Assembly: GCF_001421515.1 (NCBI RefSeq)
Contig: NZ_LMKM01000038.1
Span: 62,312 to 126,311, forward strand
DNA: 64,000 bases
Reading direction: 5' to 3'
Origin: Pedobacter sp. Leaf216
GTDB taxonomy: Bacteria > Bacteroidota > Bacteroidia > Sphingobacteriales > Sphingobacteriaceae
The translations under genes and the position numbers were made by a program. Under the pieces are notes generated by a model, which worked only from the letters and a program-made list of their open reading frames with translations, was not told where the DNA came from and searched no databases. Below, in pieces: positions 55,653 to 64,000 of the stretch; positions within the stretch are counted from its first letter, which is position 1, and every line of letters starts with the position of its first letter.

Positions 55653-56732
55653 TTATCCTTTTTTCTTTTTTAGCAAAGATAGGGTTACTAAACTGTTAAA
55701 GAGGATGCAAATGCCGATAATCATCAGGATGAGCACAAAATTACCAAGTTTTTGCAATGTAAGTGTTGCCGCAACAATAAGGATGTTGAAACCGAACGTG
55801 GCGAGCACAATCCAGTTGGGTTTTATACCCAGATTTTCCAAACGGTGATGGATGTGGTTACGGTCGCCTTTAAACGGAGATCTGCCTCTGAGGATTCTGA
55901 TGGTAAATACCCTTAATGAATCGAAGATGGGTACAATGAGTAGGGCTACTGCTATTGCGGGGGCTGAGTAGAAAGCTGGATCATTATTGCCTGTAAATTT
56001 ATTAAGCTCGATAAACTTAATGGCCAATGCGGCAGAAATGAGGCCGATAATTAACGCTCCGGTATCGCCCATAAATATTTTAGCGGGAAACCAGTTGTAT
56101 TTTAAAAATCCGCCAATTGCGCCTGCAAGTGCGAAACCGATAAATGCATAGGGTATCTGTCCCATCAGCAGGAATAAAATACCGAAAGCAAAGCTGGAAA
56201 AAATCCCTATTCCAGCCGCCAGACCATCTATGCCATCGATCAGGTTAAATGCATTATTAATGAAAATGATGAGCGCGATTGAAAACAGTCCGCCCCAAAG
56301 CGGCATCATATCCCAAATACCCAATACACCATATAGGCTGGTTAGCCTGAAAGCCCCAAAAACGACCAGTATAAAAGCGACTACAATCTGTAAAATAAAT
56401 TTGGTGCTGGTATTGGTGCCATATACATCGTCTTTTAAGCCAAGCGCTGAAAGTATAATGCATGATGCAATAAGAAAATTGGCTTCTTTAAAATTAATAA
56501 CAGCTGAAAAAAGTAAAATGCTTACGGTAAAGCTTCCTACAATGGCCAGTCCGCCCAAACGGGAAATGTTGCGTTTGTGGGTTTTACGGTAAAGATCGTT
56601 TTTATCAAAAAGGCGGTATTTAAGCGAGGTATAGATAATGCTTGGAACACTTATAACCACAATGGAAAAAGCCAATATAAAAATGGCAATACAGAAATAG
56701 CCGGAATAAGTATTCAGTATCGGTTCAAACAA
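55653..56732 (-). CDS. WecA/TagO/RfbF-type undecaprenyl-phosphate sugar-1-phosphate transferase
   Basis: A 359-aa membrane enzyme of the MraY/WecA family. It transfers a HexNAc-1-phosphate to undecaprenyl phosphate at the start of polysaccharide chains. Catalytic motifs are LKDDVYGTNTST, NNAFNLIDGIDGLAAG and KIFMGDTGALIIG, with about ten helices. It differs from MraY in the short cytoplasmic loops and HIHHRLENLGI near the C-terminus, typical of WecA. It lies 0.3 kb before the glycosyltransferase gene at the edge of the exopolysaccharide locus, so it is probably the initiating enzyme. Confidence 0.92.
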   Translation of the reverse strand: MFEPILNTYSGYFCIAIFILAFSIVVISVPSIIYTSLKYRLFDKNDLYRKTHKRNISRLGGLAIVGSFTVSILLFSAVINFKEANFLIASCIILSALGLKDDVYGTNTSTKFILQIVVAFILVVFGAFRLTSLYGVLGIWDMMPLWGGLFSIALIIFINNAFNLIDGIDGLAAGIGIFSSFAFGILFLLMGQIPYAFIGFALAGAIGGFLKYNWFPAKIFMGDTGALIIGLISAALAIKFIELNKFTGNNDPAFYSAPAIAVALLIVPIFDSLRVFTIRILRGRSPFKGDRNHIHHRLENLGIKPNWIVLATFGFNILIVAATLTLQKLGNFVLILMIIGICILFNSLVTLSLLKKKKG

Positions 56733-56873: not shown

Positions 56874-57614
56874 CTAAAGCTGACTCAGCTTACTGAACTT
56901 TTTTTTAAGCACAACTAATAATGGATTGGGTACTTTATTTCTTTTTAAGGCTTTATAATCATCGATAAATGCAGCTATCCTGTTTTGTATTGATCGATTG
57001 CTGAGTCCGCCGGTACGCATGGAAACCATTAAAAGCGGCAAATGTAGTGCTTTGATTTTATGTTGGTAAAAGTAGCGCAAAATGAGGTCGTAATCTGCTG
57101 TTGTACGAAGATCTAAGGCGTAATTACCATAATTTTTAAACAACTCTTTTTTTAAGTACAAGGTGGGGTGTGCGGGCATCCAGCCTTCTTTTATATGCTG
57201 TTGACTGGCTTGTTTCGATCTCCACTTTCTAATGATCTGATTGGTATGCGGATGAACATAGTTAAGGTCTCCATATATTCCATCAATCCCCGGATTTTCG
57301 ATAAAAGCTTTGGCAACTGCGCTCAAGATTTCAGAGCTGGCCAATTTATCATCTGCATTTAAGATTCCAACGACATCTCCTGTTGCTTGTTCAATACCTT
57401 TATTAATGGCATCGTATAATCCTTTATCTTTCTCTGAAACAAAATAATTTATGTGTTTGCTGTTTTCTTGAATAATGTTTATCGTACTATCTGTAGATGC
57501 TCCATCTATCACCAAATATTCCAGATCGGGATAAGTTTGTGCTTTTACTGAATCAAAACAATCCTGCAAGAATGTTTCGCCATTATATACAACCGTGATG
57601 AGTGAAATTTTCAT
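56874..57614 (-). CDS. Glycosyltransferase family 2
   Basis: A ~246-aa GT2 enzyme. Start MKISLITVVYNGETFLQDC is the GT2 Rossmann entry, LEYLVIDGASTDST carries the nucleotide-diphosphate and metal binding region, and GILNADDKL is the DXD-like motif (ADD). ATTADYDLILRYF is a typical late motif. I chose Met4 of the frame at 57614. It adds a sugar to a lipid-linked oligosaccharide, in line with its neighbours in the EPS region. The donor sugar is not predictable. Confidence 0.9.
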   Translation of the reverse strand: MKISLITVVYNGETFLQDCFDSVKAQTYPDLEYLVIDGASTDSTINIIQENSKHINYFVSEKDKGLYDAINKGIEQATGDVVGILNADDKLASSEILSAVAKAFIENPGIDGIYGDLNYVHPHTNQIIRKWRSKQASQQHIKEGWMPAHPTLYLKKELFKNYGNYALDLRTTADYDLILRYFYQHKIKALHLPLLMVSMRTGGLSNRSIQNRIAAFIDDYKALKRNKVPNPLLVVLKKKFSKLSQL

Positions 57615-57708
57615 ATTTACCAAAGGGACAATCTGACTTTATTGTGTAAAGCAAACCTGGGTAAATATAGCAATACAATTAGTAGGTGTAAAGTAAATTG
57701 GAAGGGTG

Positions 57709-58134
57709 CTAAAATTTATTTCTTCTCCTTATGATGAATATGCCAAAAATACCTGCGGCAGTGGCGAGTGGCCATGAGTAATCGTCGAGGTTGCAATTTA
57801 CAAAGGTATAATCGACAAGGGTACCAGTTGGACAAGCTACACAAATCGCGATCTGGAGCCCCCCAAGGTTTGCACCCAAAGTTGGATTCCCATAAATACA
57901 AGAACCACCGCTACTATTAATATTTACCCAACCTGGGCAAGTGCCATACGCAGTTGAATATGGAGAAGTAATATAAAAAGTTTTTGTACCTAAAGAAAGG
58001 GGAATTAAATTAACAGTACTATAACCTGCAAAATTTGGGTAAACAGTATTTCCTACCAGACAGCCCTCTGCAGCAAAAGATGGCTTTGCGAAACAAATAA
58101 AGATGATAAGAAAGATTATCTGCAAGCATTTCAT
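57709..58134 (-). CDS. Small secreted Cys-rich protein with C-terminal sorting-like tail (copy 1)
   Basis: A 141-aa protein: signal peptide to ~residue 21 (FAKPSFA), mature N-terminus AEGCLVGNTVYPN, six cysteines, and a tail of NCNLDDYSWP, then hydrophobic LATAAGIFGIFII and RRRNKF. The arrangement (short acidic motif, membrane helix, arginine cluster at the very end) is that of exosortase-type sorting signals. Three nearby genes (58298, 59256, 59922) have the same plan with different sequence. No known family is recognised in the mature part. It would be exported and either anchored or processed at the outer surface. Confidence 0.7.
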   Translation of the reverse strand: MKCLQIIFLIIFICFAKPSFAAEGCLVGNTVYPNFAGYSTVNLIPLSLGTKTFYITSPYSTAYGTCPGWVNINSSGGSCIYGNPTLGANLGGLQIAICVACPTGTLVDYTFVNCNLDDYSWPLATAAGIFGIFIIRRRNKF

Positions 58135-58297
58135 GGTCGAATCCGGGGTGGTTCAACACAAACTTACGCATACTGGATACCCTATTTATTGTTCGTTTTG
58201 TTCAAAAAAAGAAGTAAATGTATAATGCGATACCCAGTAACTATCTATAAAATCGTACACTTGCCAAAACTATAAGGAATATTTTTTAATTATGATG

Positions 58298-58867
58298 TTA
58301 ATAAAGACTGCTTGCTCTTTTTCGAATAAACAAAAAACTACAGGCTCCTATTGGAAATAATAACAATGAAAGATAATCATCAATAGGTAGATTATTAAGC
58401 TGCGCTGAACATGGATAATTTGGATCCGCATCAGCATAATATGCGGGATCGTTGTACCTATAATCAATCTCAGTTCCTTCATTACCATTGCCGCTCGTAA
58501 AGTTTGCGGTATAAGAAGATGAAGTTGCGCACCTTGTATTGGAGGTTCCTGTAATTTCATTTGCTGCGTTATAGGAGACGTTGGAGTTTGTAGCAGATAC
58601 ATACCTGGTGCCTGCCGGATACACATTTATATAGCCGCATCTATAGCCGCTGTATCCGTTACCTGTAATTATGGGTACTAATGGACTAGATCTGTAAAGC
58701 CGAACACTTTGGGTAATGTCTCCATTGTAAGTGGCCGTGCCTAAAAATTGTGTTGCTACATTACTACCTAAATTACAGCCACGTCCGGTAACTTGACTAA
58801 ATGATGGTGATATAAACGAGAAAAATAAAACTGCTGACGAGACAGTTAAAGAGAGATATTTCGACAT
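58298..58867 (-). CDS. Small secreted protein with C-terminal sorting-like tail (copy 2)
   Basis: A 189-aa protein with signal peptide (to ~residue 25, SPSFSQ), then GRGCNLGSNVATQF, long Tyr/Asn/Thr/Ser-rich beta-like region, and the tail LPIDDYLSLLLFPIGACSFL ending in RKRASSLY. The PIDD motif before the helix is most like a PID-CTERM domain. It is the largest of the four, with cysteines at the start (GC), in YRCGY, CATSS and NYPCSAQ, and at the tail. Function unknown; surface attachment is inferred from the tail. Confidence 0.7.
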   Translation of the reverse strand: MSKYLSLTVSSAVLFFSFISPSFSQVTGRGCNLGSNVATQFLGTATYNGDITQSVRLYRSSPLVPIITGNGYSGYRCGYINVYPAGTRYVSATNSNVSYNAANEITGTSNTRCATSSSYTANFTSGNGNEGTEIDYRYNDPAYYADADPNYPCSAQLNNLPIDDYLSLLLFPIGACSFLFIRKRASSLY

Positions 58868-59255
58868 TATTGTTTGGTACTAATGGGTGCACATACGTAA
58901 CTCCCATGAATGGAGATGTTATGCGGCAATCTTTTTGTTTATGATAATAGACAACTAAATCCTGAAGCAGCGACAGTATAAAACCGAACACACACCCCAA
59001 ATAATCGTAAGATTAATATTACAAAACTAAGCAAAAAAGAAAAAAATAATAAATGAACGAAATGAATATGAGGCAGATATGACATATCTACCAAATCATA
59101 AAAATTATAAAAAAATACGCTGAAATGCAATAAAACCCAGAAAAGCGGGTAAAGGCAATGAACATTGGCGAGCAAAACGCTTGACAATTGTCATCGAGAA
59201 AATCGAATTGATAATTTTAATATTTAAGTATTGGCGCTATTATTGGAAACAATAT
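58868..59255. other. AT-rich intergenic stretch among the secreted-protein genes
   Basis: About 390 bases, very AT-rich. Hydrophobic reading frames can be drawn in it on the minus strand, but their composition (runs of Phe/Leu/Val from T-rich DNA) suggests they are not real. No RNA gene or repeat is recognised. It should contain the promoter of the gene ending at 58298. Confidence 0.5.
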
Positions 59256-59678
59256 TTAGTTACTGCTTAATTTTTCTTTATAGATAATAGATAAAGCAAC
59301 AGCCCCACTAGTAAGTAAAAGCAATAAAATATTTTCGTCTAGGGAACAGTATATCATTGTGAAAGTTCCTCTAATGCCCACCTGTGCACCATTGCAACTT
59401 GTAAAAACACAGTTATTACCAGAGGCATCACAAGTTTGCGTAATGCTAACAGTGCAAACTGTGCAAGTAGCAGGGCCAGAAGTTGGAGTCCAATAACAGT
59501 AACTCGGACTAAGGGAGACAGCGCCTGATACTGGCAGAAAATACGGCGGATATGGTTCTCTTGTATAAACCTTATTGGTGGAAGGTAAGTAGCAACCAGT
59601 ATATGTGCCTTGAGCTTTAGTGATACTACTTAAAAACACGCAAAATAATATACATAATAAGCAATTAACTGTTTTCAT
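59256..59678 (-). CDS. Small secreted Cys-rich protein with C-terminal tail (copy 3)
   Basis: The best start is Met at 59678 (MKTVNCLLCIL; the frame extends to 59690). Signal peptide ends near KAQ, then GTYTGCYLPSTNKVYT, a Pro-rich part (REPYPPYFLPV) and a Cys-rich centre (CYW, TCTVC, QTC, NNC). The tail is IYCSLDENILLLLLTSGAVA followed by LSIIYKEKL. It has the same tripartite plan as its neighbours, though the final basic cluster is weak (YKEKLSSN). At least eight cysteines in ~120 mature residues suggest disulfides. Function unknown. Confidence 0.68.
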   Translation of the reverse strand: MKTVNCLLCILFCVFLSSITKAQGTYTGCYLPSTNKVYTREPYPPYFLPVSGAVSLSPSYCYWTPTSGPATCTVCTVSITQTCDASGNNCVFTSCNGAQVGIRGTFTMIYCSLDENILLLLLTSGAVALSIIYKEKLSSN

Positions 59679-59709
59679 AAGCGGGACCAAGGGATAAACT
59701 ATTGTCGCA

Positions 59710-59740
59710 CAAAGTTAGCACACACTTGTAAGAATACCAA
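59710..59740 (-). promoter_or_regulatory. Bacteroidota-type promoter of the secreted-protein gene at 59256-59678
   Basis: On the minus strand TTG (complement of 59738-59740) is followed after 20 bases by TAACTTTG (complement of 59710-59717), matching -33 TTG and -7 TAnnTTTG with the right spacing. The leader to the ATG at 59678 is about 25-30 bases. Confidence 0.5.
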
Positions 59741-59921
59741 TAAATATGGTAAATCATACAAAAAATTTGATTTATGTACTTAACTATGAGTATAGTACAA
59801 ACCTGATTAAATGTTTATTAAACAAATAATATTCAGAAAGTAAAGACATCGTTATTAACAGGAGTTGCCGACAAAGATATTTTTAAGCTAAAATTCAATG
59901 TATCTCATATAGTCTATCTAT

Positions 59922-60260
59922 TTAGAGATGCTTGCGATTTCGCAGATTTAAAAATACTATAGTTCCCAAAATAATGTATAAGGGATTAACCAAGTCATCT
60001 AAAGGACATTCTGTAATAAACAGTTTTTCAGTGTACTCAAAGCCAAAGCAGCCGAATGGCGTTGGCACGCCAAAGCAGTTTTTTCTGCTGGTGCCAGTGT
60101 CTTTATATTTGCATTTAATATCTGTTTGACAACTGTTGGGCACCAGGTTTCCAAAAACATCATACAAGCAGTTTCCATCCGAACTTGCTGCCCATTGAGC
60201 AGAAGCAAACGATGAAAAAATAAGGAGAAAGAAAACAATGGCACAGAGCTGCTTTTTCAT
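59922..60260 (-). CDS. Small secreted protein with C-terminal tail (copy 4)
   Basis: The Met at 60260 gives a signal MKKQLCAIVFFLLIFSSFAS followed by AQWAASSDGNC; the longer frame to 60359 starts with a non-signal stretch. The mature part has NCLYDVFGNLVPNSC, KCKYKDTGTSRKNC and GVPTPFGCFG. The tail is FITECPLDDLVNPLYIILGT, then IVFLNLRNRKHL with a basic end. CPLDD matches the motif of the other three members. It is the nearest of the four to the exopolysaccharide export genes, which are divergent from it. Function unknown. Confidence 0.68.
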   Translation of the reverse strand: MKKQLCAIVFFLLIFSSFASAQWAASSDGNCLYDVFGNLVPNSCQTDIKCKYKDTGTSRKNCFGVPTPFGCFGFEYTEKLFITECPLDDLVNPLYIILGTIVFLNLRNRKHL

Positions 60261-60572: not shown

Positions 60573-61403
60573 ATGTCCCAAAAGAAATACTTACCTCTGC
60601 TACTACTATGCGTTGTTATTTTAAGTTCAATCTTATCGAGTTGTTCTGTACGCAAGCAACATAGCTTATTCAATGCGCCAACAGATATTGTTACAGATAC
60701 GATTAAGCAGGTTTATGTGGTAAATGATCAAGGGCTTAGTGATATTTATTATAAAATTAAAGTTAATGATCAACTGGCCATCCGGAATGTGCAGAATCCG
60801 GAATTTGGAGCAACAAATGGTAATAGCGCAGGAGTTTCAGGCTCAGCAAACTCCAACAGTAACCAAAGTGGCTCCGCTCAGAATGTATTGGCTTATGCGG
60901 TAGAGCCTGATGGTATGGTTAATTTACCAGCGGTAGGCAGAGTAGAAGTCATCGGCTTAACAAGAAGAGAAGCAGCCATCAAAATACAGAATATTTATAA
61001 AAGTAAATTGCTCAAAGATCCGATAATTGAATTAACTGTAGTGAATTTGAAGGTTACCTTACTGGGTGAATTTGGAAGACAAGGAAATTTTTACCTCGAA
61101 AAAGACAATACAGATCTCATTGAAATAATAGGAGAAGCTGGTGGGATTACCAAAACGGCAGACCCCAAAAGTTTAAAAATTATTAGGGGTGATCGCAGCC
61201 ATCCCGAAATTATCTATGTTAATTTAAACGATATCAATAGCCTGGCTAGTAAGAAACTGGTACTTCAAAATAACGATATTATTGTTATCCAGCAAACCAA
61301 AGGGCAAGCCTTAAGCGAACGTTTACAAAGCTATAATAATATTGTACAGCCTCTATTGGTGGTGATTAACCTTGCAACATTAATTTTCGCGCTAACACGT
61401 TAA
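60573..61403 (+). CDS. Polysaccharide export lipoprotein, Wza-like
   Basis: A 276-aa outer-membrane lipoprotein: signal with lipobox LSSC (Cys24), a poly-export domain (residues ~55-150, YYKIKVNDQLAIRNVQNPEF and VEPDGMVNLPAVGRVEVIGLTRREA), then an SLBB-type domain (~155-240, VTLLGEFGRQGNFYL, NNDIIVIQQ) and a C-terminal hydrophobic helix (PLLVVINLATLIFAL). Wza forms the octameric channel through which polysaccharide leaves. The segment GNSAGVSGSANSNSNQSG is a Ser/Gly/Asn-rich loop. Its stop overlaps the wzc start (TAATG). Confidence 0.93.
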   Translation: MSQKKYLPLLLLCVVILSSILSSCSVRKQHSLFNAPTDIVTDTIKQVYVVNDQGLSDIYYKIKVNDQLAIRNVQNPEFGATNGNSAGVSGSANSNSNQSGSAQNVLAYAVEPDGMVNLPAVGRVEVIGLTRREAAIKIQNIYKSKLLKDPIIELTVVNLKVTLLGEFGRQGNFYLEKDNTDLIEIIGEAGGITKTADPKSLKIIRGDRSHPEIIYVNLNDINSLASKKLVLQNNDIIVIQQTKGQALSERLQSYNNIVQPLLVVINLATLIFALTR

Positions 61404-63942: not shown

Positions 63943-64000
63943 ATGATTGATCAAAATTACAGGTGGTATCCGGTTTACACGCGTTCGAGAGCAGAAAAAA
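63943..64000 (+). CDS. UpxY/NusG-type transcription antiterminator, start only
   Basis: The frame opens with ATG at 63943 and codes MIDQNYRWYPVYTRSRAEKK up to the window edge (19 complete codons). WYPVYTRSRAEKK is the start of a NusG N-terminal domain, as in UpxY/RfaH-like antiterminators. These bind paused polymerase in the leader and let it read through long polysaccharide operons. It is the first gene of the unit to the right of wzc, so it would act on the distal EPS genes. Family call is from the N-terminal motif only. Confidence 0.72.
   Translation, partial: MIDQNYRWYPVYTRSRAEK

Follow-up and report, generated by a model that had tools for sequence, protein, structure and literature searches.

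In the proposal made for the PEP-CTERM/EpsH system, the C-terminal tail holds a secreted protein, the enzyme cuts near the tail motif by means of a cysteine and the C-terminus is passed to an acceptor (PMC1569441), which is called unidentified in the accessible text of PMC7468200. For archaeosortase A and the PGF-CTERM proteins, processing and lipid attachment were shown in archaea (PMC7157517). Among Bacteroidota, the exosortase XrtF of Flavobacterium johnsoniae was tied to surface colonisation and biofilm, and its substrates are left to future work in the available part of that report (PMC10936215). Here, a 64,000-nucleotide stretch of the Pedobacter sp. Leaf216 genome (contig NZ_LMKM01000038.1, positions 62,312–126,311; hereafter, the window) was analyzed, and it contains four genes encoding small secreted proteins, P1–P4, with a C-terminal tail that we call LDDY. 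These proteins are very probably substrates of the exosortase XrtY, whose gene belongs to the same exopolysaccharide locus, at a distance of about 36 kb. To our knowledge, neither the substrates nor the acceptor are known for many exosortase subfamilies.

Tail Proteins and Exosortase of the Studied Locus

The following genes and tails were identified (window coordinates; all on the minus strand).

57709..58134, minus strand, P1, secreted protein of 141 amino acids (aa) with an LDDY tail (open frame and four-tail profile)
57712-57816, minus strand, P1 tail, CNLDDYSW...IIRRRNKF
58298..58867, minus strand, P2, secreted protein of 189 aa with an LDDY tail (open frame, four-tail profile and orthologs)
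58301-58411, minus strand, P2 tail, LPIDDY...FIRKRAS
59256..59678, minus strand, P3, secreted protein of 140 aa with an LDDY tail (open frame and four-tail profile)
59259-59369, minus strand, P3 tail, CSLDEN...IYKEKL, with a weak basic end
59922..60260, minus strand, P4, secreted protein of 112 aa with an LDDY tail (open frame and four-tail profile)
59925-60026, minus strand, P4 tail, CPLDD...LRNRKHL

The genes are spaced by 163, 388 and 243 bases; the longest frames of P3 and P4 open at TTG, and an inner ATG was taken as the start. All four N-termini resemble signal peptides as judged by eye and with a hydrophobicity rule, no dedicated predictor being used, and each protein consists of a cysteine-containing body followed by the tail. 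In each tail, an acidic motif (CNLDD, LPIDD, CSLDE and CPLDD) precedes one hydrophobic segment, and the end is basic, though weakly so in P3 (IIYKEKLSSN); the four tails align on a common [LI]-D-[DE] core. They carry one fixed-register signal, namely C-P-[LI]-D-D-Y, a predicted helix and a basic end.

Pairwise comparison with shuffled sequences revealed that the tails are related in five of the six pairs (z 4.4–7.0; the exception is P3 versus P4, z 1.9), and the bodies in none of the six (z −0.7 to 1.3). A profile of the four tails, searched against the whole genome (5.68 Mb), matched P1–P4 alone with E values of 2.0e-16 or lower, the next value being 0.44. When the profile was built only from the tails of other genomes, P1–P4 were again at the top (E 9.5e-14, 7.7e-11, 3.8e-7 and 1.6e-4; next 0.09) among 2063 stop-to-stop stretches from about 127 kb around the locus, with an 8.3 kb overlap counted twice; this is a check and not independent proof, because those relatives were reached via the first profile.

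No NCBIfam or Pfam model matched P1–P4 at its cut-off: the NCBIfam scan gave one match, Loki-CTERM, with 11 bits (cut-off 19.9), and the Pfam scan gave none. PID-CTERM (NF046080) was considered as the identity of the four tails and rejected, since it did not match there; its best match in the genome, located elsewhere, had 13.3 bits (cut-off 26). The four minus-strand genes described in the initial annotation are real frames with motif-helix-basic tails, and these tails are the sole matches of the four-tail profile in the genome. The picture that this annotation gave of a common tail on divergent mature parts fits the bodies throughout and the tails except for the P3–P4 pair; the further members that it anticipated exist in relatives and were not detected by the four-tail profile in this genome. 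Of the likeness it noted to PID-CTERM or another exosortase signal, the exosortase type was retained and PID-CTERM itself was not.

The general exosortase model TIGR04178 gave one match in the whole genome, to the right of the window, and none inside the 64 kb window.

G000:C38:158608-159228 (G000 being the genome of this study; window coordinates 96297-96917, also L004:2608-3228), plus strand, XrtY, 206 aa

XrtY sits 32.3 kb past the right end of the window and 36.4 kb from the nearest tail (match start to match start). It passes the exosortase Y model NF046083 (243 bits, cut-off 160), and on the second-best model, XrtX, it reaches 66.5 bits versus 170. The putative catalytic Cys, Arg and His are kept; among 48 aligned XrtYs, all have this Cys and Arg and 47 have the His-His pair, and the remaining sequence (G192) retains the second His. 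The genome search for exosortase genes thus returned a single enzyme, placed where the initial annotation had expected it, outside the window and probably to the right of position 64000. That annotation also described the tail cluster as abutting wza/wzc, in agreement with the divergent wza-like gene at 60573 and the wzc-like gene at 61403.

Co-Distribution of Tails and XrtY

In a family sample of 201 genomes (E thresholds of 0.01 for LDDY, 0.001 for XrtY and 0.01 for PID-CTERM), LDDY was found in 42 genomes, XrtY in 88 and PID-CTERM in 39. Within a set of 145 Pedobacter genomes (LDDY cut at E 1e-5), XrtY was present in 98 (86 over the cut-off), LDDY in 68 with 283 matches and PID-CTERM in 32. 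LDDY tails occurred in 64/98 genomes with XrtY versus 4/47 without it, PID tails in 30/98 versus 2/47, and either tail in 94/98 versus 6/47. The two tails never occurred in one genome (0/145), four genomes had XrtY with neither tail, and 41 had none of the three.

The 98 genomes were also grouped by XrtY bit score, which serves as a proxy for the branch, tested directly on 48 sequences; the cut at 205 bits was chosen once the scores were known, and the values closest to it are 209.7 and 200.8. Above 205 bits, 62 of 63 genomes had LDDY and one had PID (G216, where a second exosortase match is present). The 100–205 bit group comprised 33 genomes, 29 with PID, one with LDDY (G185) and three with neither, and the two genomes below 100 bits were G278 (21.9, LDDY) and G303 (50.7, neither). 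More than one exosortase-like match per genome was observed in G216 (contig G216:C2), G293, G151, G157 and G048; the weaker of these matches has a PID-CTERM match next to it in G293, G157 and G048.

A tree was built from 48 XrtYs, leaving out the broken XrtY of G185. The 24 Pedobacter LDDY rows formed one branch with a support of 100/99, and the three tail labels required 6 changes on the tree versus a shuffled mean of 20.0. The remaining LDDY-labelled row, G001 from a second genus, falls among the PID rows, and both profiles match its tail (G001:C55). XrtY branch and tail type agree. The rest of the tree is unevenly supported, and the places of long branches (G071, G048, G050 and others) are unsure. 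Rows labelled as having no tail mostly belong to genus g14, whose XrtY genomes gave weak matches to tiny proteins of 66–76 aa. These end in CP[LI]D[ST]W, a helix and a basic stretch, and they may represent a third variety of tail.

L107:2080-2280, tiny tail protein of genus g14
L109:2040-2270, tiny tail protein of genus g14
L110:2259-2462, tiny tail protein of genus g14

LDDY Class in Relatives

The class set was taken from the window and 33 stretches of relatives (L073–L105). There were 100 candidate frames, of which 7 from L107–L110 and L112 were left out and 17 more were dropped (among them L079:2824, a true member with the ending CDLDDY); the script kept 76 proteins, 72 of them non-redundant, and alignment A3 leaves out three of these 72 tails. 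The 76 members are 112–189 aa long, carry Gly-Cys or Ala-Cys near the mature start in 72/76 cases and have four or more Cys after residue 20 in all 76. Of the 72 tails, 53 have Cys at position −2, 60 have Pro at −1 and 69 have Leu or Ile at 0; Asp at +2 and Tyr at +3 are each present in 45, Gly at +12 and +15 in 37 and 44, respectively, and Arg or Lys at +20 and +21 in 57 and 50, respectively. Asp at +1 is found in 72/72, and this column is no evidence, because a [PSNGTA][ILVM]D step belonged to the selection. Three alignment columns are invariant in a set of 36 proteins drawn from the window and from named Pedobacter contigs: those of the first Cys, of an inner Cys and of the tail Asp. P1 orthologs were found in 9 loci (from 44 pattern matches), all in Pedobacter, including P. 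jeongneungensis, P. jejuensis, P. nototheniae and P. agri, one being 74% identical; P2 also has orthologs.

Scanning of the 36 members against NCBIfam gave single-member matches to five families (PFE_CTERM, E 0.0036; SCO7613_CTERM, 0.034; a toxin B-subunit model, 0.051; Loki-CTERM, 0.052; JDVT-CTERM, 0.074), and Pfam likewise gave five families in one member each, with E 0.06 or more; these scattered matches are taken as chance. A sequence search for solved structures found no relative of the tail proteins. The AlphaFold models were poor, with a predicted local distance difference test (pLDDT) score of 53.0 and a predicted template modelling (pTM) score of 0.28 for P1 (11 sequences), and 58.8 and 0.53 for P2 (5 sequences), where strands were modelled in the body. 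Foldseek with the P2 model gave one match with E 8.9, and these structural results speak neither for nor against a new fold.

Upstream of the 76 genes, a TAnnTTTG box was present in 46 stretches versus a mean of 17.2 and a maximum of 27 in 50 mononucleotide shuffles, and the full two-box pattern in 8/76 versus 1.4 in shuffles; P4 is without the box in its 220 upstream bases. No strong shared motif was found in the 76 stretches, a sigma-54-type motif not having been searched for specifically. Many tail genes likely have separate promoters.

Synteny and the Glycosyltransferase beside XrtY

Of the 25 Pedobacter genomes in the first sample, 24 have a tail gene on the contig that carries XrtY, the nearest one 0.7–48 kb away (median 34 kb); in G188, the two are on different contigs. 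A family 2 glycosyltransferase (PF00535, 47.8 bits, cut-off 23.3) is encoded just upstream of XrtY, and it adjoins or is fused to XrtY in 47/49 loci. A homolog is adjacent in 37 of these loci (two only 37–39% identical), overlaps via a long start call in 2 and forms one frame with XrtY in 8; in the other 2 (G031, G048), none lies within reach. In the fused proteins, 277–301 columns align with the glycosyltransferase and 139–203 columns with XrtY. Fusions were found with LDDY (G173), with PID (G050, G120, G167) and also in genus g14.

L037, L039, L040, L151, L155, L158, L162 and L164, fusion frames, family 2 glycosyltransferase followed by XrtY
L162:3242-3535, tiny PLDDN-tail protein of G173, which looks intermediate between PID and LDDY substrates

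Adjacency and fusion indicate that the glycosyltransferase and XrtY act together. In G173, the first split within the LDDY branch as drawn, the tiny PLDDN-tail protein lies 0.7 kb from the fusion and resembles the tiny PID-CTERM protein of G167; the LDDY set may thus have expanded from an ancestor of the PID type.

Proposed Mechanism and Alternatives

Distribution, synteny and branch matching connect the tail with the enzyme; cleavage, the acceptor and the final location are inferred as follows. The signal peptide would take each protein across the inner membrane, where the tail would retain it, exposing the CP[LI]DDY motif on the outer face and keeping the basic end inside. On the model of the PEP-CTERM/EpsH proposal and of archaeosortase A, XrtY would recognise the motif, cut nearby via its Cys and hand the new C-terminus to an acceptor, and the protein would reach the surface or matrix along with the polysaccharide. 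A glycan or glycolipid acceptor is favoured, because the glycosyltransferase adjoins or is fused to XrtY. A more specific and tentative possibility, which we consider rather unlikely as it stands, is that XrtY is a glyco-sortase that, with the neighbouring or fused glycosyltransferase, attaches the tail proteins by their C-termini to a sugar that is lipid-linked or exported, whereby diversified Cys-containing proteins become covalently part of the exopolysaccharide. If this were true, the PID and LDDY branches would be a natural substrate-specificity switch in one enzyme family.

Several observations weigh against processing of the tails by XrtY. The genomes share ancestry, so the genome counts overstate independence, and the Fisher p-values calculated for the tally of the 145 genomes are given no weight for this reason. 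The conservation of the motif is partly owed to how the tails were picked. Tails occur without XrtY in G182, G217, G267 and G289 (LDDY) and in G221 and G226 (PID), and the general exosortase model gave no match in any of these six Pedobacter genomes, nor in five further XrtY-less ones used as controls. The G182 contig stops just upstream of its single tail gene, the point where the exopolysaccharide locus starts in the study genome; the G267 genome has a completeness of 81%, and a single LDDY match was obtained in each of G217 and G289. XrtY-less does not mean exosortase-less, because G176, a Pedobacter genome with neither XrtY nor either tail, contains another exosortase match (L174; G176:C24:25684-25965) in a 481 aa open frame. 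Tail-like frames of 73–88 aa were found without an exosortase match in G123 and G133 (genus g18, small genomes). Conversely, XrtY is accompanied by neither tail in G140, G274, G291 and G303, and G185 has 8 LDDY tails but a broken XrtY frame.

L148:1483-1704 (G133), tail-like frame of genus g18
G123:C25:40900-40983, tail-like frame of genus g18
L159:4471-4770, broken XrtY of G185, two overlapping pieces in different frames that score in pieces
G220:C30:19591-20102, broken XrtY of G220, match with internal stops

It is improbable that the tails are ordinary C-terminal anchors, alike only as old duplicates, which would leave the proteins in the inner membrane. A signal peptide, one C-terminal helix and a basic end would also suffice for a simple anchor, the P1–P4 genes are in tandem, and the six Pedobacter genomes listed above have tails without a detected exosortase. 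However, the tails are still alike while the bodies no longer are, the motif, two Gly and the Arg-Lys end hold a fixed register, and the tails track XrtY and its branch over the 145 genomes. It is even less credible that tails and XrtY were co-inherited as one exopolysaccharide block with the enzyme not acting on the tails: their location on one contig in most first-sample genomes, mostly about 34 kb apart, and PID matches 5 kb (G216) and 0.2 kb (G293) from an XrtY would fit this, but extra LDDY tails lie on other contigs in several genomes (e.g., G125, G013, G188), and the PID genes of the first-sample Pedobacter PID genomes track XrtY though they are on another contig (6/7) or more than 1 Mb off (1/7).

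Organization of the Exopolysaccharide Locus

The genes from the wza-like gene to XrtY read as one exopolysaccharide locus, mostly glycosyltransferase-like, with XrtY at the far end; the genes of L003 and most of L002, between the window and XrtY, were named by eye. Early in the gene run towards XrtY, an UpxY antiterminator was found (153.7 bits, cut-off 100), and XYAG1 is located two genes upstream of XrtY (NF046085, 604.7 bits, cut-off 400). The genes flanking the tail cluster in the window are given below.

60573..61403, plus strand, wza-like gene for polysaccharide export, which diverges from the tail genes and begins the exopolysaccharide locus; export models under cut-off, best 46.8 bits
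61403..63802, plus strand, wzc-like polysaccharide tyrosine autokinase; TIGR01007, 150 bits, cut-off 108.05
56874..57623, minus strand, glycosyltransferase-like gene downstream of the tail genes; glycosyltransferase models under cut-off
55653..56732, minus strand, WecA-like sugar-phosphate transferase gene; TIGR02380, 124.8 bits, under the cut-off of 326

A frame similar to the glycosyltransferase-like gene at 56874..57623 adjoins the tail gene in G182. The right end of the contig beyond XrtY (L004:8238-13570) looks like a conjugative element by eye, with TraG-like and antirestriction-like frames.

Comparison with Known Systems

A literature search limited to openly licensed papers found no description of the LDDY tail and nothing pairing an exosortase with PID-CTERM or with Mucilaginibacter, and the names XrtY and XrtX gave unrelated papers. 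With the present assignment, one XrtY branch gains a defined, predicted set of substrates, in a genus of which strains are in culture. The sister XrtY branch with a different tail offers the basis for a specificity-swap test, and the glycosyltransferase-exosortase fusions point to a testable sugar acceptor.

The PID-CTERM/XrtY pair shares with the LDDY system the P-[IL]-D core, the helix and the basic end, and occurs with XrtY in the 30 Pedobacter genomes counted above. However, the curated PID-CTERM model misses the four LDDY tails. The one PID-CTERM protein whose whole sequence was read (L114) is tiny, with about 65 aa counted from its ATG, and a single match was found in 30/32 genomes, whereas LDDY proteins have 112–189 aa, four or more Cys and on average 4.2 matches per genome. 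LDDY is therefore regarded, by its motif and profile, as a tail class related to PID-CTERM yet distinct from the curated model.

As far as described in PMC1569441, PEP-CTERM/EpsH (XrtA) likewise combines a signal peptide, diverse bodies and a motif-helix-basic tail with an exosortase in an exopolysaccharide locus and mostly single-gene units; it differs in its motif and exosortase subfamily. XrtF belongs to another subfamily, and on its model the XrtY studied here reaches 53.1 bits, below the cut-off of 90. Archaeosortase A is in the same superfamily by TIGR04178 and, according to the accessible text of PMC7157517, acts on a tripartite tail, but it is archaeal, with a PGF motif and a lipid acceptor. 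Thus, the kind of system is known and the enzyme family is curated; the tail class and the diversified substrate set for one XrtY branch are new here.

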